From Bacteroidota bacterium (lineage in GTDB: Bacteria > Bacteroidota > Bacteroidia > Bacteroidales > F082), in contig JAHIUX010000087.1 in the NCBI GenBank assembly GCA_018816765.1, forward strand, positions 62,001-126,000: 64,000 nucleotides of DNA, read 5' to 3'. This document shows, one piece after another, positions 43,654 to 52,865 of the stretch (positions are counted from its first letter, which is position 1; every line of letters begins with the position of its first letter). The notes below the pieces were generated by a model. That model worked only from the letters and a program-made list of their open reading frames with translations, made no database searches and was not told the origin of the DNA. The position numbers and the translations under genes are program-made.

Positions 43654-46600
43654 CTAGATCCATTTCAGCAATGGAAAATCCATGCGGTGCGGCAACTGTT
43701 CGTTTTTAGGGAAGATCCGGAAGGTGTAATCATACACACCGGCCCTGTACAAGGGCACATCAACGCGGTAGCGGATCCAGCCTTCACCTGAGCTCACAAC
43801 ATACAGTTCTTCCTTAAACACCAGCTCATCGATGCGGTCGTGTAACTTCCGTCCGACGAGCAACTCAATACCCACATCACCAACCGATAAGCCGGGGGTG
43901 TTCAGGTTGATCTCTGCCACGAAATTCTCTCCAAACTCGAGCGGCCTTACTGTTGGATCGGGTACCTTAATGGATTTCACTTCGAGGGCATCCCAGGCTG
44001 ACCTTACCTTGTTTTTCCAGGCATTGATTTCATGGGCAAGGGCGTAATTGTTCTGCCTCATCAGGTGCGTGCGCCCAATCAGCTTGCCATAAAAGCCTTT
44101 GAAATAGTCGTCGAGCATGCGTTTCATGGTGAAATGCGGTGCTATCTCAGCAATGTTATTTTTGATGTTTTTGATCCAGGCTTCGGGAACACCGGCTTCG
44201 TTGCGCGTATAGTATAACTTAACAATCTCACCCTCGAGAAGGTTATAGATTGTTTCAGCATCCAGCTCATCCTGATATTGCTGGTTGTTGTAGGTGCGGC
44301 TTTCCTGGATGGCCCAGCCGGCATTTTTTTTGTAACCTTCGGCCCACCAGCCATCAAGCACACTGAAATTCAATACCCCGTTCATCACGGCTTTTTCGCC
44401 GCTTGTGCCCGACGCTTCAAGTGGCCGGGTTGGGGTGTTTAACCAGATGTCAACGCTGTTGGTCAACCGCTTGCCGAGCTCCATATCATAGTTTTCGATA
44501 AAGAGCACCTTGCCGATAAACTCCGGCATTTTCGATACTTCGATGATGCGCTTGATCAGGTCCTGTCCGGCTTTATCATTAGGATGGGCTTTGCCGGCAA
44601 ACAGGAAAATCACCGGACGTTCGGCCCTGTTCACAATGCGCGACAAGCGTTCCAGGTTTGTAAACAGGAGGTGTGCCCTTTTATACGTGGCAAAGCGCCT
44701 GGCAAAGCCTAGGATCAGGGCATCCGCATTCAGTGCTTCAATGGTTTTCAGGATCAGCTTTGGACTTTCCTGCCGCTCTGTCAGGTCGAGTTTCACACGG
44801 TATTTGATATAGCTGATCAGCTCGGCTTTAAGCATCTTGCGCAGCTCCCAGATTTCACTGTCAGAAACCTTGTAGATTTCGGCCCAGTGCGCTGGGTTCG
44901 ATTGGTCAGCCTCAAAGTCTGGCGTGAAGTATTTTCGGTAGAGCTGCTGCCATGATGCATCGGTCCAGGTTGGATAATGCACACCATTGGTCACAGAACC
45001 AATATGCAGTTCATTGGCGAAATAGCCGGGGTAGAGCGATTGAAACATCTCGCGCGATACACGTCCATGTATCTGACTCACACCGTTCACCTCCTGACTC
45101 AGCTTGGTTGCCAGCACACTCATTGAAAATTTCTCGCCCGGATCGTTTGGCCTGAACTTGCCAAGGTTCATAAAATCGTTCCATTCGATATTCAGCCTGG
45201 CGGCATAATGCGGCATATACATGCGGAGCAGGTGCTCTTCGAAGGCATCATGGCCTGCAGGCACTGGGGTGTGGGTGGTAAACAGGGTAGAAGCCCGCAC
45301 AATTTCGAGGGCGGTGTTGAAGTCGAAATTTTCGTGTTCGGTACAACGCCTCAGCCTTTCGAGACCGATAAAGGCGGAATGGCCTTCGTTGCTGTGGTAA
45401 ATTGTTGGCTGAATGCCAATGGTTTCCAGTAAACGAATACCACCTACGCCAAGGACCATTTCCTGTTTGAACCGCATTTCGCTGTCGCCCCCGTATAACT
45501 GGAAGGTGATGCTGCGGTCATCGGCCTGGTTTTCTTCAATGTCGGTGTCGAGCAAATAGAGGGCAATGCGTCCTACACTGACTTTCCATGCTTTTGCCAC
45601 GAGCGTGCGGCCCGGAAGCGCCAGGCTGACAGTTACCCAATCGCCCTTTTCATCGCGGACAGGTTCGAGTGGCAGGTGGGTGAATTTCTGTGGAACATAT
45701 TGTGCGAGCTGGTCGCCGAAAAGTGAGATGTCCTGGGTGAAGTAACCATAGCGGTACAAGAGTCCAATCCCGACGAGGTTTACGGCCGAGTCACTGGCTT
45801 GTTTCAGGTAATCGCCTGCCAGAATGCCCAGCCCGCCCGAATAGATTTTGAGGCTCTTATGCAGCCCATATTCCATGCTGAAATATGCGATGGTATCAGC
45901 TGAGGCAGGAGTAGCTGACATATACTGTTTAAAGTCGCTGTACACCTTGTCCAGTCGCTGCACAAATTCAGGATTGTTTTCAAGGGCTTCCATTTCCTTG
46001 AGCGAAAGGCTTTCCATCATCGAGATGGGGTTTTGCTCGTATTCGAGCCAGGCCTCCGGGCTGATGGACTCGAAGAGGGCGATAGCCTCAAAGTTCCACG
46101 ACCACCACAGGTTTTGCGACAGCTCCCAGAGTTTTTTAAGGTGGCGAGTGTAAACCGGCTGGATCAGGAATTTTTTCCAGTTTGGCTGATCCTGTTTTGA
46201 CAGGTTGAAGGTGCGCAAGGGATCGTTCAGCCTGCGTGATTCAAAGAGGTGTTCGCGCTCATGTACCTTGTTAATGGCGATTTCGTAGGCTGTATAATAA
46301 TTTGCTGCCAGCTGATCCCACAAGGCCTGATTAGCCGTGTGAATGGCTGATTTCCGGCTGTTTACCACTGTTTCTGCCTTTGCTTTGCTTTGTTGCAGCA
46401 AATGCCTGGTGATGGCTACCACCACCTCGTCAGTGTTGTCTTCGGTGCGCTCGAGCACGGTCACTGCATCAGCCGATCCGCCGATGGTGCGGGCCCAGAG
46501 TCCGAAACCTGCCAGTGAGGTTGTGATGGTTGGAATGCCATTGGCAATGCTTTCGAGTGGGGTGTATCCCCAGGGCTCATAGTATGAAGCGAAAACCGAA

Positions 46601-47883
46601 ACGTCGAATGCTGCAAGGAAGTCATAATAACCCAGGTCAAAGATGCCATCATGCCCGTTGAGGTAGGTGGGTGCAAATATGATTTTCACCTTGTCGCTCG
46701 GGTTGTTGTTCAGTTGCACTTCCCTGATCCTGTTAATCACCTGATCGTTAAAGCCATCGAACAAACGGTGGGTGCAATATGGGTCAGGCAAGCCGATGTT
46801 GGCCGCCGGATTGGCCATCTTTTCTTTAAGTTCTTTAACTGGTCCGGCGATATTGGCGGGAACGGTGATCACTGCCAGCAGGGTTTTGCTGAGTTTTCCC
46901 GATTTATTCAGCGCGCTGATGGCGTCGATAAACAGGTCGATGCCCTTGTTGCGGAATTCGTAACGTCCACTGGTGACAACCATCGTGGTGTCATCGGTAA
47001 GCGTTTGTCCGGTCAGCAGGCTGGCAACGGAAAGTATCTTTTTTCTGGCATCGCTTCTTTTGCGGGCATAAAGGGCTTCCGAAACGATCATTTCATCATC
47101 AAATCCATTGATGGTGACGACGTCTGGGTTTCGGCCGAGAAAATGGGCGCACTCCCTTGCTGTAATGTCACTCACGGTCGTAAATGCATCTGCCACATTG
47201 GCTGCTGTGCGTTCGATCGATTGTTTCGAAGTGATATTGAACCTGGTAGCTGTCAGGGCAGGCTGATAACTCAGCATATCCCTGTACAATGGCAAACCAT
47301 TGCTGGCAATGGCCCTTCCGAGGGCAGTGGCATGGGTTGTGAAGGCTGTGCCAATGTGTGGGGCGTACTTGTTGAGGTAAAGCACACCGGTGCCAGTCAT
47401 CCACTCATGAAACTGTGCCACCACCTTTTCGTAGGTGCTCAGGTGAAAGTTGCAGAAGCTCTCGATAACCAGTCCTGAAGCATAGCCAAACATGGCTGGT
47501 TCGATATAGTCCCATTGGCCCTGCAGTGAGTCGAGCTGGTAGGTTTCCCAGAAATCGGTGAAGATCTTGTCTTTTTGTGTAAACAATGGGGTGAAGTCAA
47601 TCAGTATGGCAAGTGGCTTGCTTTCGATGGCCCAGCGTCCAACACGGATCTTCAGTCCTTCGATGGCAGCACGCTTCCTCCACTCGGGGAAGAGGCTGTT
47701 GTCTTCGATAAAATAAGGATTGCCGGTTGTTTCCTTCCATACATCTGGCCCGATGGTGATGTAGTGATCTTTGTATTCGTTGACGATGGTTTTGCTCTTT
47801 GTGGCAATGACGGTGTAGATGCCACCAATCAGGTTACAAACTTCCCAGCTTGTTTCAAAAATATAATCAGGTTTTTGGGTCAT
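43654..47883 (-). CDS. Glycogen synthase/alpha-glucan phosphorylase fusion
   Basis: A 1409-aa two-enzyme protein. Residues 1 to about 545 form a GT3-type glycogen synthase (begins FETSWEVCNLIGGIYTVIATK, with YEPWGYTPLESIANGIPTI near residue 435). Residues from about 555 to 1290 form an alpha-glucan phosphorylase of the GT35 family, with the PLP lysine at Lys1164 in SGEKAVMNG. A beta-rich tail closes the chain. One half would build and the other break alpha-1,4-glucan, a combination seen in Bacteroidota. It is the last gene of the operon, 113 bp after the GH57 gene. Confidence 0.92.
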   Translation of the reverse strand: MTQKPDYIFETSWEVCNLIGGIYTVIATKSKTIVNEYKDHYITIGPDVWKETTGNPYFIEDNSLFPEWRKRAAIEGLKIRVGRWAIESKPLAILIDFTPLFTQKDKIFTDFWETYQLDSLQGQWDYIEPAMFGYASGLVIESFCNFHLSTYEKVVAQFHEWMTGTGVLYLNKYAPHIGTAFTTHATALGRAIASNGLPLYRDMLSYQPALTATRFNITSKQSIERTAANVADAFTTVSDITARECAHFLGRNPDVVTINGFDDEMIVSEALYARKRSDARKKILSVASLLTGQTLTDDTTMVVTSGRYEFRNKGIDLFIDAISALNKSGKLSKTLLAVITVPANIAGPVKELKEKMANPAANIGLPDPYCTHRLFDGFNDQVINRIREVQLNNNPSDKVKIIFAPTYLNGHDGIFDLGYYDFLAAFDVSVFASYYEPWGYTPLESIANGIPTITTSLAGFGLWARTIGGSADAVTVLERTEDNTDEVVVAITRHLLQQSKAKAETVVNSRKSAIHTANQALWDQLAANYYTAYEIAINKVHEREHLFESRRLNDPLRTFNLSKQDQPNWKKFLIQPVYTRHLKKLWELSQNLWWSWNFEAIALFESISPEAWLEYEQNPISMMESLSLKEMEALENNPEFVQRLDKVYSDFKQYMSATPASADTIAYFSMEYGLHKSLKIYSGGLGILAGDYLKQASDSAVNLVGIGLLYRYGYFTQDISLFGDQLAQYVPQKFTHLPLEPVRDEKGDWVTVSLALPGRTLVAKAWKVSVGRIALYLLDTDIEENQADDRSITFQLYGGDSEMRFKQEMVLGVGGIRLLETIGIQPTIYHSNEGHSAFIGLERLRRCTEHENFDFNTALEIVRASTLFTTHTPVPAGHDAFEEHLLRMYMPHYAARLNIEWNDFMNLGKFRPNDPGEKFSMSVLATKLSQEVNGVSQIHGRVSREMFQSLYPGYFANELHIGSVTNGVHYPTWTDASWQQLYRKYFTPDFEADQSNPAHWAEIYKVSDSEIWELRKMLKAELISYIKYRVKLDLTERQESPKLILKTIEALNADALILGFARRFATYKRAHLLFTNLERLSRIVNRAERPVIFLFAGKAHPNDKAGQDLIKRIIEVSKMPEFIGKVLFIENYDMELGKRLTNSVDIWLNTPTRPLEASGTSGEKAVMNGVLNFSVLDGWWAEGYKKNAGWAIQESRTYNNQQYQDELDAETIYNLLEGEIVKLYYTRNEAGVPEAWIKNIKNNIAEIAPHFTMKRMLDDYFKGFYGKLIGRTHLMRQNNYALAHEINAWKNKVRSAWDALEVKSIKVPDPTVRPLEFGENFVAEINLNTPGLSVGDVGIELLVGRKLHDRIDELVFKEELYVVSSGEGWIRYRVDVPLYRAGVYDYTFRIFPKNEQLPHRMDFPLLKWI

Positions 47884-47996: not shown

Positions 47997-49574
47997 CTAA
48001 AACAATGCTTTTAGTTTATCTTCTATTTGTTTACGGATTTGGGCAGCGCTCTTTTTGGTGACTTTCATCTCGTGCTGCAGGTCTTCAAACTTTTTCCTTG
48101 TAGCCCGTGAGAGGTTCGGCAGCACCTTGTTAACGAGTTCCTGCTCAGCATCTTTCAAGGCTGCAACAAGGTCTTCCGCTTCAAGGTCTTTTACCAGTTT
48201 TTTGATCTTGGCATCAGAGAGGTTTCTGATGTCGTCGAAAACAGGAATCACTTTTTCTTCGCCCTTTTTGATGGCTTGCTTGGCTTTTCCGCTGGCTTTT
48301 TCAAGCTGTTCGCCGGCCTGTGCGCCTACCATTTTAACAAACTGACTGCCTTTTTCAATCAGCTCACCCAGCATGGCTGCGGTATCGGGCTGGTGTTTTT
48401 CGACCCTGATCATGAAATCGGACAGCACATTCATATAATTGATGTAGGCTTCATAAGGAGAAGGATAGTGGTTGAAGTATTTATGGACGTCCCCGTCGGA
48501 GAACCACTTGGTGCACATATAGTAAAAATGATCCGACGACTGCAGGTAGTTCCAGTCGCGCTGAATATCAGGATCATCAATTTGTCTTACTTTTTGTCCG
48601 AGTGAATACAGCTTATCGAATGATTCATCCTGGAGGTCGTTGCCAAGCCATGCAGTAACATCGCGTTCTTCATCGGCCCAGGAGACCGGATAGGGAACTT
48701 GTATAGCCGACACTGGCTGCAGCTTTTCGGCCAGCAGGGCAGGAGTCGAAAATTTGAATTCACTGTGGCTGAATACAGCACCAGGCAAGGCCTTCATAAA
48801 ATCGAAGATACCTGTCGAAGCCCACTGGTGTTCGCCAAAAGTTTCATAATCAAGAAACAGGTTTACCACTTCTTCCTTAGGGTTGATTTTATTCAGCCAT
48901 CCAACAAATTTCTCCGCAGTGATTGGCCATTCGGGCCAGCTTTGCTGCGAAAACCTGAAGGTGATGTCGTCGCTGAGCCTGAAGTTGCGCAGAAGCACCT
49001 TGAGTTTGGGGTTGATGGCGTTGGCATACATATAGTTCGGGCTTTTCCATCCAAGGATGTGCTTGGCACCTTCGGTGAGCATGACCTTGAAACCCATATC
49101 GGCCACCTGGGCGCCAATCTTGTCCGAATAAATCAATTCCGTGTTTCTGAAGCTCACAGGTTTCACGCCAAACACTTCTTCCACTTTCCTGCTGTGGGCA
49201 GTAACCTGCCTTTCAAACTCCTCAGGGTCTTTCAGGGCGCTTAATGAGTGTGCATAGGTTTCGGCAAGGATTTCGACATTGCCAGTGGCCACAAGCCGGC
49301 GAAAGCTGTCGATGGCTTCGGGTGCGTAAAGCTCCATCTGTTCGATGGCAAGGCCGGTAATTGAAAAGCTGACCTTGAAATTGGCACCGAACTCACCGAT
49401 GTGTTTCATGAGGATGTCGTTCATGGGCAGGTAGCATTTTTCAGCCACACGCCGCATGATCATCCTGTTAAAGTATTCGTCGTAATAGTGGTGGTTTTTG
49501 CCAATATCAAAAAAACGGTAAGTCCGCAGACGGAAGGGTTGATGAACCTGAAAATAGAAACAAATTGATTTCAT
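47997..49574 (-). CDS. GH57 alpha-glucan-active enzyme with a FliG-C-like tail
   Basis: A 525-aa protein without signal peptide. Residues 1-390 form the GH57 barrel (FYFQVHQPFRLR start), with nucleophile Glu146 in RNTELIY and acid/base Asp242 in LFLDYETFGEH; GH57 enzymes hydrolyse or transfer alpha-1,4-glucans. The last 115 or so residues are Lys/Glu-rich helices. From residue 445 (VFDDIRNLSDAKI) the pattern DLVAALKDAEQEL, LPNLSR resembles the C-terminal domain of the flagellar protein FliG. It is 20 bp after the GT4 gene. Confidence 0.9.
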   Translation of the reverse strand: MKSICFYFQVHQPFRLRTYRFFDIGKNHHYYDEYFNRMIMRRVAEKCYLPMNDILMKHIGEFGANFKVSFSITGLAIEQMELYAPEAIDSFRRLVATGNVEILAETYAHSLSALKDPEEFERQVTAHSRKVEEVFGVKPVSFRNTELIYSDKIGAQVADMGFKVMLTEGAKHILGWKSPNYMYANAINPKLKVLLRNFRLSDDITFRFSQQSWPEWPITAEKFVGWLNKINPKEEVVNLFLDYETFGEHQWASTGIFDFMKALPGAVFSHSEFKFSTPALLAEKLQPVSAIQVPYPVSWADEERDVTAWLGNDLQDESFDKLYSLGQKVRQIDDPDIQRDWNYLQSSDHFYYMCTKWFSDGDVHKYFNHYPSPYEAYINYMNVLSDFMIRVEKHQPDTAAMLGELIEKGSQFVKMVGAQAGEQLEKASGKAKQAIKKGEEKVIPVFDDIRNLSDAKIKKLVKDLEAEDLVAALKDAEQELVNKVLPNLSRATRKKFEDLQHEMKVTKKSAAQIRKQIEDKLKALF

Positions 49575-49594: not shown

Positions 49595-50884
49595 TTATTG
49601 TTGTTTGTATACCTTGTCGTAAACCTGTTTAACCTGCATTGCAGCGTGCTCCCATTTGAGTGAGTCCACTTCGTCTTTACCAAACCTGATGAAGGTCTCA
49701 GAGAGTGCGTTGTAGTGGCAAAGACCATAGATGGCATCGGCCATGCCGTCGATGTCCCAGAAGTCGACTTTAATGGCATGTTTAAGAATTTCCGATACGC
49801 CGGATTGTTTCGATATCACCACCGGAACATTCGACCGCATGGCTTCCAGTGGCACAATGCCAAAAGGTTCCGAGATCGATGGCATGACAAAGACATCGGA
49901 CATGGCAAACATCTTGTCCACATCATCGCCTTTCAGAAAACCGGTGAAGTGGAATTTATCACCCATGCGCAGCTTAGCCACGCGGGCGACCATTTTATTG
50001 AGCATATCGCCTGTTCCTGCCATCACAAACCGTACATTGGGATCACGTTTGAGTACCTTTCGTGCGGCTTCGACGAAATACTCCGGGCCTTTCTGATAAG
50101 TAATTCTGCCCAAAAAGGTGACCACTTTTTCGTCAACAGACTTCTGGAAACCGGCAAGTTCGGGCTTGTTTGAGGGTTCAACGGCATTGTGCACCGTAAC
50201 TACTTTCTTTGGGTCGATCCCGTAGCGGTCGATGACGATTTTGCGGGTGAGGTTGCTCACGGTGATCACCCTGTCGGCCATTTCCATCCCGCGCTTCTCG
50301 ATGGCATACACATCGGTATTGATGTTTTCGCCCGAGCGATCAAATTCGGTGGCATGCATATGGACAACAAGCGGCTTTCCGGTAGTTTCCTTGGCGGCTA
50401 CGCCGGCCGAATAGGTAAGCCAGTCGTGTGCATGGATGATGTCGAAATCGTGTTTGGTAGCAATGGATGACCCGATCAGCGCATAGCGTGCGACTTCTTC
50501 CATGAGGTTGGTGCCATATTTGCCGGAAAACTCATATTTCTGCGAGAAAACCCTGCTTTTGAATGACTTGCTGGCTTTTCTGTTTTCTTCCTGAAGCCGT
50601 TCAAAGTCCTCCGGTCCTACATAGGGAATGATGTTTGAACCTACTTCCATATATTGCACCCGATCCCAGTAGGACCTCTCTTCATCCTTGTCGATGTCGA
50701 TGGTTACCTTACTGGCATTCACAAGCCTGACGGCTTCTTCTGATTCATCACCATAGGCCTTAGGGACGACAAAGATGACTTCGAGACCGTGTTTGGCCAG
50801 CCCTTTTGTCAAGCCAAAACATGCTGTGCCAAGTCCGCCGGTGATATGTGGAGGGAATTCCCATCCAAACATGAGTACCTTCAT
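49595..50884 (-). CDS. GT4-family glycosyltransferase in the glycogen operon
   Basis: A 429-aa GT-B-fold enzyme. The N-terminal FGWEFPPHITGGLGTA is the glycogen-synthase-like donor-site opening, HAHDWLTY and HMHATEFDR follow, and the C-terminal PSISEPFGIVPLEAM holds the EX7E-type motif. It probably uses ADP- or UDP-glucose to extend or start an alpha-glucan, which fits its place between debranching enzyme and GH57 genes; GT4 GlgA-like or maltose-type synthase roles are both possible. Gaps are 25 bp upstream and 20 bp downstream. Confidence 0.88.
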   Translation of the reverse strand: MKVLMFGWEFPPHITGGLGTACFGLTKGLAKHGLEVIFVVPKAYGDESEEAVRLVNASKVTIDIDKDEERSYWDRVQYMEVGSNIIPYVGPEDFERLQEENRKASKSFKSRVFSQKYEFSGKYGTNLMEEVARYALIGSSIATKHDFDIIHAHDWLTYSAGVAAKETTGKPLVVHMHATEFDRSGENINTDVYAIEKRGMEMADRVITVSNLTRKIVIDRYGIDPKKVVTVHNAVEPSNKPELAGFQKSVDEKVVTFLGRITYQKGPEYFVEAARKVLKRDPNVRFVMAGTGDMLNKMVARVAKLRMGDKFHFTGFLKGDDVDKMFAMSDVFVMPSISEPFGIVPLEAMRSNVPVVISKQSGVSEILKHAIKVDFWDIDGMADAIYGLCHYNALSETFIRFGKDEVDSLKWEHAAMQVKQVYDKVYKQQ

Positions 50885-50909: not shown

Positions 50910-52865
50910 TCAATGCCTGCTTTTGTTGCTTGCGTCGATGAGTTTTTTAAGCCGGATCAGTTCGCCAACTGCCCATGCCTGCGAGATGGCGCCGCCTGGG
51001 AGGTGAGGAGGGTCACCATCATACACTTCTGAGATATTGCCAATCCCGGCTTCAAGCAAGGTACTTTCGTAGCCTTCATAGATTTCGGTAATGTCGGGCA
51101 GTGTTGATTTGCCGTACACCTTGAGCCAGCCTTCACAATAATGACAGATCAGCCAGGTGAACACGGTTCCCTGGTGGTAAGCCAGGTCGCGTTTTTCCTG
51201 GTTTCCACCAAAAACACCTTGATAGTCAGGGTGTTTTGGTGATAGGGTACGAAGTCCCCTCTCGGTCAGCAGCTCTGACTTTACCCTATTGATAACACCC
51301 GCCTGCATCTCATCACTTAGCGGACTGTAAGGTAGCGAAACCGCAAAAAGCATATTTGGTCTTACGGCGAAATCCTTATAATCACCATCGACATAATCGG
51401 CCAGGTAATTGTATTTTGGATCCCAGAAAAGGTCAACAAAGGCAGCTTTGATCTGTTCCGGAAGGCCATTCCATTCTTCAATAAATGCTTTGTCGCAGGC
51501 TTCATGCGCAAGTTCAAGGGCGTAGTTAACCGCATTATACCACAGTGAATTCACTTCAACTGCATATCCTAGCCGTGGGGTGACCGGCTTTCCTTTGCTA
51601 ACAACGTCCATCCAGGTGAGGGCCATGCCGTTTTCACCGGAGTGAATCAGGCCGTTTTCGTTCATATAGATACCAAAATCGGTGCCCGCGCGAAAGCCTG
51701 AAAGAATTTGCTTTAACCACTTGCCATAGCGTTTCCAGGTTTCAGCCTTTGTGCCCTTCAGTGTGGTGTATTGCTGCAAGGTCCAGAAAAACCAAAGCGG
51801 TGCATCCACCGAGGCAAAGTCAGGCTGGTTGTTGCGCCCGATATTGGGAAACAGCGCGCCTTTGAGTGTGGTGATCATATTGTCGATCACCAGATTAAAG
51901 TTGTTTTCATCGCCGTTGAGCAAGGTGAGTCCGGGCAAGGCGATAAAGGTATCGCGGCCCCAGGTACCAAACCAGGGGAAGCCCGCCATGATCTCTACTT
52001 TCTGTTTGTTTCGTACGATGAACTGCTGCGCAGAATTCATCAGGCAGTGTTCGAAGTTATCGCGCGGAATGCGTTTTTTAACTTCGGCATTGTATTGACG
52101 GCTGAATGTAGCCGGTTGTTTTTCTTCGAGTCCGGCCGACACGATGATACTTTCACCTGCCTTAATGGGGATATCAAAAAATCCGGGAACATAGAGGTCT
52201 TCGTTGCCGGCATAACCGCGCTCTTTCTCCCTGATATATTCAATGTTGTAGTACCAGTCAGGCACATGGGTGTATTCTGCCTTTTTCGAAAGCTGGAAAA
52301 AGAGCCGGGAATAGCCGGTATACATCTGCCAGCTCACTCCATTGGATGTTTCTTCGTATTTGTTATTCAGGTCGATATTGGCTTTCGAAAGCTGGTGCAC
52401 ATTCCTGAAAGCCAGAAAAGGTTTCAGCCTGAGGGTTGTCTTCGAATGGGCCTCGAGGAGGGTGTATTTGATTAACACCCGTGATTCATTTTCAGCGAAA
52501 AGCATCTCTTTGCTTAACACCACGCCACCAACACGGTAAATCAGCTTTGGTATCGGCTCCGAGGTGAAGGTGCGCAGGTATTTGTGCCCTCTTGGCTCAT
52601 AAATGCCATTGGGATACATCCTTACGCCCAGGTTAAAGGCCTCATCGTGCTGGATTACGGTTTCGTCGATGGACGAAAGCAGCACATGGTTGTCATGGTC
52701 GAGCCAGGGTTGCGGCACGACTAGCAAACCGTGGTATTTCCGGGTGTTGCAACCGACGACAGTGGTGCTCGAATAACCTCCTGACCTGTTTGAACGCACC
52801 AGTTCGCGGGTTAATGAAAACTCGAGATTGATAAGCTGAGATTTTTCTAACGAAATATAGCTCAT
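50910..52865 (-). CDS. Amylo-alpha-1,6-glucosidase (glycogen debranching enzyme, GH133)
   Basis: A 651-aa enzyme that removes alpha-1,6 branches. The N-terminal domain starts SLTRELVRSNRSGGYSSTTV, typical of the bacterial glycogen debranching N-domain. The C-terminal (alpha/alpha)6 barrel shows GFPWFGTWGRDTFIALPGL and a late RPNMLFAVSLPYSPL and YHQGTVFTWLICHYCEGW. It is the first gene of the four-gene glycogen operon. Confidence 0.93.
   Translation of the reverse strand: MSYISLEKSQLINLEFSLTRELVRSNRSGGYSSTTVVGCNTRKYHGLLVVPQPWLDHDNHVLLSSIDETVIQHDEAFNLGVRMYPNGIYEPRGHKYLRTFTSEPIPKLIYRVGGVVLSKEMLFAENESRVLIKYTLLEAHSKTTLRLKPFLAFRNVHQLSKANIDLNNKYEETSNGVSWQMYTGYSRLFFQLSKKAEYTHVPDWYYNIEYIREKERGYAGNEDLYVPGFFDIPIKAGESIIVSAGLEEKQPATFSRQYNAEVKKRIPRDNFEHCLMNSAQQFIVRNKQKVEIMAGFPWFGTWGRDTFIALPGLTLLNGDENNFNLVIDNMITTLKGALFPNIGRNNQPDFASVDAPLWFFWTLQQYTTLKGTKAETWKRYGKWLKQILSGFRAGTDFGIYMNENGLIHSGENGMALTWMDVVSKGKPVTPRLGYAVEVNSLWYNAVNYALELAHEACDKAFIEEWNGLPEQIKAAFVDLFWDPKYNYLADYVDGDYKDFAVRPNMLFAVSLPYSPLSDEMQAGVINRVKSELLTERGLRTLSPKHPDYQGVFGGNQEKRDLAYHQGTVFTWLICHYCEGWLKVYGKSTLPDITEIYEGYESTLLEAGIGNISEVYDGDPPHLPGGAISQAWAVGELIRLKKLIDASNKSRH

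Follow-up and report, generated by a model that had tools for sequence, protein, structure and literature searches.

Why does a GH57 enzyme of a Bacteroidales bacterium end in a domain that resembles part of the flagellar rotor? The question was raised by a gene in a 64,000 nucleotide stretch of DNA, here called the window, for which the original prediction had recognised residues 445-525 of the encoded protein by eye as FliG_C-like. The features of this gene were assigned as follows.

47997-49574, minus strand: open reading frame of 525 aa (ORF call)
48399..49574, minus strand: GH57 catalytic domain, residues 1-392 (Pfam Glyco_hydro_57, E 2.6e-71, residues 6-294)
48255..48398, minus strand: linker, residues 393-440, predicted helical at low confidence (mean pLDDT 46-67), varying among relatives
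48000..48254, minus strand: FliG_C-homologous C-terminal domain, residues 441-525, six helices (Pfam, profile against PDB, model and fold match)
47997..47999, minus strand: stop codon (ORF call)

The catalytic part matched Glyco_hydro_57 with 240.8 bits against a Pfam cut-off of 21.2, and the protein is filed as GH57 and its tail as a member of FliG_C. E146 was invariant and D242 was conserved in at least 90% of an alignment of 49 GH57 sequences; we take these residues to be the catalytic Glu and Asp of GH57. A genome search found one GH57 in the window's genome. Modelling of all 525 residues gave pLDDT values of 85-90 for residues 451-520 of the tail and lower values at both of its ends; the linker values listed above are means per ten-residue block from residue 391 to 440 of the same model.

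The identity of the tail was assessed by profile, by comparison with the PDB and by fold, and all three bore out the recognition made by eye. PF01706 (FliG_C) matched residues 441-522, starting four residues before the start first proposed, and scored 41.2 bits where 23.3 is the cut-off; the E value was 2.1e-10 on the full-length sequence and 7.5e-12 on the isolated tail. Using phmmer against PDB sequences, FliG chains ranked first for the tail (8ucs_H 1.8e-5, 1qc7_A 2.1e-5). FliG_C was matched at E<=0.01 by 49/49 aligned tails (best 6.4e-17), and a profile of these 49 tails (the window's and 48 relatives) found FliG in the PDB at 5.4e-21, followed by designed armadillo proteins (best 1.8e-5) and annexins and then by MgtE at 0.93. 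The same tail profile scored 43.3-61.7 bits on the C-domains of FliG (30 loci) and at most 8.2 bits on the FliG N and M repeats. An AlphaFold2 model of the tail had six helices with a mean pLDDT of 87 and matched FliG C-domains in Foldseek (best 2.3e-4) and in VIA-align 2, with Z scores of 10.3-14.5 against 14 FliG chains covering the C-domain. The model superposed on 1qc7_B with Z 13.7 and rmsd 1.4 A over 83 residues and on 8ucs_H with Z 12.7 and rmsd 1.4 A over 81 residues. Because Pfam, the PDB comparison, all 49 tails and the fold gave FliG_C, the tail is neither a chance match nor a generic coiled coil, and its homology to the FliG C-terminal domain is firmly supported.

MgtE_N (PF03448) also scored on this protein, with 22.9 bits for the whole sequence and 26.4 bits (E 1.1e-5) for the tail alone against a gathering score of 25.9, and it matched 34/49 aligned tails at E<=0.01 (best 2.4e-6). 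FliG and MgtE are regarded as distant homologues (PMC7355467). An origin from MgtE_N or from a generic armadillo repeat, and not from FliG, is nonetheless highly improbable, as the FliG_C score was far above that of MgtE_N, the tail profile separated FliG from MgtE by some twenty orders of magnitude in E value, and MgtE chains reached Z scores of 3.7-6.5 on the modelled tail, below those of every FliG C-domain; this origin was disfavoured on all three counts. A link to phasins was also considered, as the linker matched PHA_granule_1 at E 0.002, yet the match recurred at E<=0.01 in only 2/49 members and was taken as chance. The score for the PHA granule-associated protein model TIGR01837 was 18.2 bits, below its cut-off of 94.7.

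The full-length FliG model TIGR00207 reached 33.2 bits against an equivalog cut-off of 226.7, aligning through its C-terminal part only, and no FliG_N or FliG_M match was found in the window protein by Pfam at E<=1. The protein therefore carries a FliG C-domain yet is not a FliG. A genome-wide search found no second FliG_C match in the window's genome beside the GH57 tail.

Motor residues were compared between the 49 tails and 30 loci (L111-L140) that were taken as flagellar FliGs from their score and length. Core positions F446, D448, L469, A472, L473, K483 and N487 were mostly kept. Position 458 was K in 46/49 tails and Q in 30/30 FliGs, and by this alignment the near-invariant Lys 458 is a signature of the GH57 tails' own. 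The MF pair that precedes the domain in FliG was absent from GH57 tails. Rotor-stator contacts of FliG use R281 and D288-D289 (E. coli numbering; PMC12505986). The position of R281 (491) was basic in 30/49 tails and that of D288 (498) was acidic in 23/49, against 30/30 FliGs in each case, and position 499 (D289 by its spacing from R281) was acidic in 0/49 tails against 30/30 FliGs, being L, I, A, F or V in 47/49; the counts at 498 and 499 are subject to a possible register slip of one residue. As such a slip in the helix alignment would bring the acidic residues 497-498 into line with the pair, the stator pattern is best described as weakened, not abolished. By these counts it does not appear to be intact, and therefore a motor role for the GH57 tail appears unlikely. 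The tail might instead still bind a proton channel of the MotA/ExbB/TolQ type and so bring the enzyme to the membrane, as could be argued from the fold match to a MotAB-bound FliG (8ucs_H) and the basic residue shared at the R281 position, but with the acidic pair reduced as counted above, subject to the same register slip, we find this very doubtful.

The genes around the GH57 gene, all on the same strand, are listed here.

43654..47883, minus strand: downstream gene, glycogen synthase (GT3-like)-glycogen phosphorylase fusion, 1409 aa (Pfam Glycogen_syn, DUF3417, Phosphorylase)
49595..50884, minus strand: upstream gene, GT4-type glycosyltransferase, 429 aa (Pfam Glycos_transf_1)
50910..52865, minus strand: upstream gene, glycogen debranching enzyme, 651 aa (Pfam GDE_N and GDE_C)

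Conservation of this neighbourhood was scored at E<=1e-20 in the best 80 loci of a scan of species genomes, a set which is biased toward close relatives. Of the 80, 79 had a GT4 homologue in the same orientation and 73 had a debranching enzyme homologue, most misses of the latter falling at locus ends. The synthase-phosphorylase homologue was found in 56 and is less firmly linked, because its misses often fall away from locus ends. The FliG_C tail itself was detected with an iterated profile in 48 of these best 80 loci (49 counting an interrupted gene, L035), and gene order around GH57 was largely kept in them whichever tail type was present. Judged by sequence and gene context, the window protein is a GH57 alpha-glucan enzyme belonging to a conserved glycogen gene cluster. 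The idea that it fills the place of an absent branching enzyme, which PMC11046441 brings up as a question in archaea, was unneeded, as a GH13 candidate is encoded elsewhere in the window's genome. This 676 aa candidate matched CBM_48, Alpha-amylase and Alpha-amylase_C and scored below the TIGR01515 cut-off.

To what extent other members of the order share this architecture was assessed in 198 sampled genomes. PF01706 matched in 43/198 at E<=0.01, with 32 above the cut-off. Twenty-nine non-window FliG_C loci were fetched and 27 of these aligned to the GH57 protein at 48% identity or more; the remaining two were a diverged GH57 derivative (L107, 25%) and another protein type (L089). The tail profile matched 40/198 genomes at E<=0.001, comprising 36 with GH57 tails, one with the diverged derivative (G049) and three with the match away from the GH57 gene (G031, G044 and G136). 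A further genome, G071, had a weak PF01706 match beside GH57 with a stop inside the match and was not among the 40. The survey of other GH57 proteins thus placed a FliG_C tail on GH57 in 36/198 genomes, spread over 27 families of the order by family code. The GH57 catalytic domain was found in 175/198 genomes, and with 36/175 bearing the tail most GH57 proteins of the order are without it by this profile, which counts against a docking role for the tail. From the family of the window's genome one other genome was sampled, G101, and its GH57 frame of 380 aa had no tail. Of 295 genomes sampled across the class, some of them from the same order, the window's own was the only one that the tail profile matched. 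A phylum-wide sample gave FliG_C matches in 104/395 genomes; by frame length (about 340-410 aa, one 220) the top matches resembled ordinary FliG, and others were of a type of about 600-700 aa.

This second FliG_C family of about 600-700 aa was observed at L200:3958-8059 (in G031, of the same order), L183-L199, L201, L141 and L142, and the L200 protein was the single FliG_C match of G031. Eleven members were scanned at E<=0.1, and FliG_C was matched in 11, FliG_M in 10, FliG_N in 10 and the FliF C-terminal domain in 3. All 19 loci L183-L201 had a MotA/ExbB-type gene of the same orientation in the 9-12 kb fetched, as found with a profile built from three sequences that themselves came from three of these sites. 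At L200 a MotB-like gene (MotB_plug and OmpA) followed the MotA/ExbB-type gene. To judge from these matches, FliF and FliG appear to be fused in this family, with a dedicated stator, apart from or alongside the ordinary flagellum.

The evolution of the GH57 tail was followed in 111 unique sequences, which were the named relatives and the loci from the order-wide FliG_C and GH57 searches with identical sequences merged, and are not a random sample. Set aside were L035, L084 and L092 (incomplete), L107 (diverged) and L001 and L153 (window copies). Classed as FliG_C (profile E<=0.01), none (fewer than 35 residues past 392), basic (more than 25% K+R) or other, the tails were FliG_C in 69, Lys/Arg-rich in 25, absent in 13 and other in 4. 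On a tree of the catalytic domain the FliG_C state changed at least 12 times, 8 of these forced by starred branches, compared to a mean of 33.8 after shuffling; the tree was made by a quick method with 40/108 inner branches open and is unrooted, so that the changes are gains and losses undivided. The alternatives to a FliG_C tail were Lys-rich histone-H1-like tails or none. Histone-H1-like GH57 C-termini rich in Lys, Ala and Pro were seen at L048, L050, L053-L055, L059, L061-L063, L066, L074-L076, L163, L169, L170, L176, L178-L180 and others. A frameshift as the cause of tail loss was rejected, as a six-frame search of 42 tailless, basic or other loci found no leftover domain. The interrupted gene L035, outside this set of 42, did hold a leftover domain in the six-frame search.

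Tail and catalytic-domain distances were correlated among 49 sequences (r 0.37, with 0/999 permutations as high). A domain tree with the 30 FliGs and 19 proteins of the 600-700 aa type permitted a single origin of the GH57 tails, while the best tree needed 3 changes; with 93 columns it was poorly resolved and carried a long-branch warning. Together, the distance correlation and the permitted single origin favour one old fusion, after which the tail would have been lost or replaced many times. Candidate donors include, besides ordinary FliG, the 600-700 aa FliF-FliG-like family, part of which scored as high with the tail profile (14.0-47.7 bits) as ordinary FliG does.

The repeated change of tail counted on the tree and the strong divergence of some tails, the most diverged having 18-30% identity to the window's tail, would fit a decaying passenger, an ancient fusion that today does nothing, except perhaps to aid solubility or stability. 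We consider this quite unlikely given that the tail was retained in the 36 genomes and 27 families noted above, that the core and Lys 458 were conserved, and that dN/dS was low in both pairs that could be measured. Tail dN/dS was about 0.05 for L002/L003 and 0.10 for L010/L011, the sole two pairs within the limit on synonymous change, and by these ratios purifying selection acts on it in each pair. A hint that the tail may have value apart from GH57 catalysis came from the diverged derivative in G049 (L202:5021-6370, minus strand, the same gene as L107), a GH57-derived protein encoded beside a Mur ligase gene. This protein had no Pfam GH57 match and had D242 and E244 replaced, the E146 column lying in a gapped stretch and reading E, and it kept its FliG_C tail despite the decayed catalytic domain. 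Glycogen genes did not adjoin the gene in the stretch read, and a genome search of G049 found no GH57 match at E<=0.001.

The exchange of tail types bears on what the tail may do. Lys/Arg-rich tails occupied the same place in the 25/111 sequences counted above, among them L176 with KPAAKAKPAAK repeats; the close sisters L038 (FliG_C) and L063 (basic) differed in tail type, as did the less close pair L036 and L178, and a Lys-rich linker occurred together with FliG_C in L042, L052 and L070. Such histone-like tails at the same place in sister lineages suggest, by analogy, a tethering or localising role for the GH57 C-terminus. In Pseudomonas, tails of such composition serve to position granules of PHA and polyphosphate (PMC9239181). 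Lineages might accordingly keep either a FliG_C-derived or a histone-H1-like Lys/Ala/Pro tail as a swappable granule or nucleoid tether, positioning the enzyme and glycogen in the way that PhaF and AlgP tails act for PHA and polyphosphate granules. The Lys-rich tails could, though, be mere low-complexity linkers remaining after domain loss, and 13/111 sequences, in a set that is not a random sample, had no tail at all. We know of no FliG_C domain that binds DNA or glycogen, and on balance a swappable tether of this kind seems unlikely. We give similarly low credence to the broader proposal that Bacteroidales position or assemble their glycogen machinery via an exchangeable GH57 tether, be it a retired rotor domain or a histone-H1-like tail.

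Our best guess is that the FliG_C tail serves docking or assembly within the glycogen cluster. The domain would have been acquired once from a FliG ancestor and would have lost its motor role, and the tail may now be a helical (armadillo-type) docking or self-assembly module behind a flexible linker, bringing the enzyme to a partner or into a complex of glycogen metabolism. The tail would be useful but dispensable, because there are close relatives without a tail or with a basic one. Stacking of FliG-like ARM motifs is described for FliG and for the related FlgY (PMC11870540). As these armadillo-like pieces stack, a reused FliG domain is most simply a docking or assembly piece. Against this, the ARM pieces that stack into the FliG ring lie mainly before the rotor-stator domain matched here. 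An assembly or partner-binding role fits three observations: part of the stator pattern is lost, two pairs show purifying selection, and histone-like tails stand in for the domain in other lineages. As a whole, this reading of single FliG ancestry, a lost motor role and a present helical module for docking or self-assembly in glycogen metabolism has, in our judgement, about an even chance of being right.

Here a motor domain clearly persists away from FliG proteins, as part of a metabolic enzyme, and a FliG_C match in a Bacteroidales genome is by itself not evidence of flagella. As the tail is present, swapped or absent within one conserved gene cluster, these loci form a natural comparison set with which the cellular organisation of bacterial glycogen enzymes becomes directly testable.

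Among known systems, the MgtE N-terminal domain (PF03448) has a related helical fold and a weak sequence match, both sequence and fold being much weaker than for FliG_C. The basic tails of PhaF and AlgP (PMC9239181), compared by composition alone, are like the Lys-rich tails of other GH57 members; a tail of this kind is absent from the window protein. The FliG C-terminal domain (PF01706; 1qc7, 8ucs) shares with the GH57 tail its six-helix fold, at an rmsd of 1.4 A, and most core positions, but FliG has N and M domains, the MF pair, Q at 458 and the acidic torque-helix pair, features that the GH57 tail does not have intact; the GH57 tail is furthermore borne by an enzyme, in a genome without another FliG_C match. 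Among the titles listed by searches of the open literature, we found no report of a GH57-FliG_C architecture. FliG did not occur in the 300,000 characters covered, of 445,374, of the review PMC11046441, in which an archaeal GH57 gene lies beside GT4 and debranching-enzyme genes. GH57 enzymes of the alpha-amylase type resemble the window protein in their catalytic domain and in these GT4 and debranching-enzyme gene neighbours, and the window protein differs from them by its C-terminal FliG_C domain.
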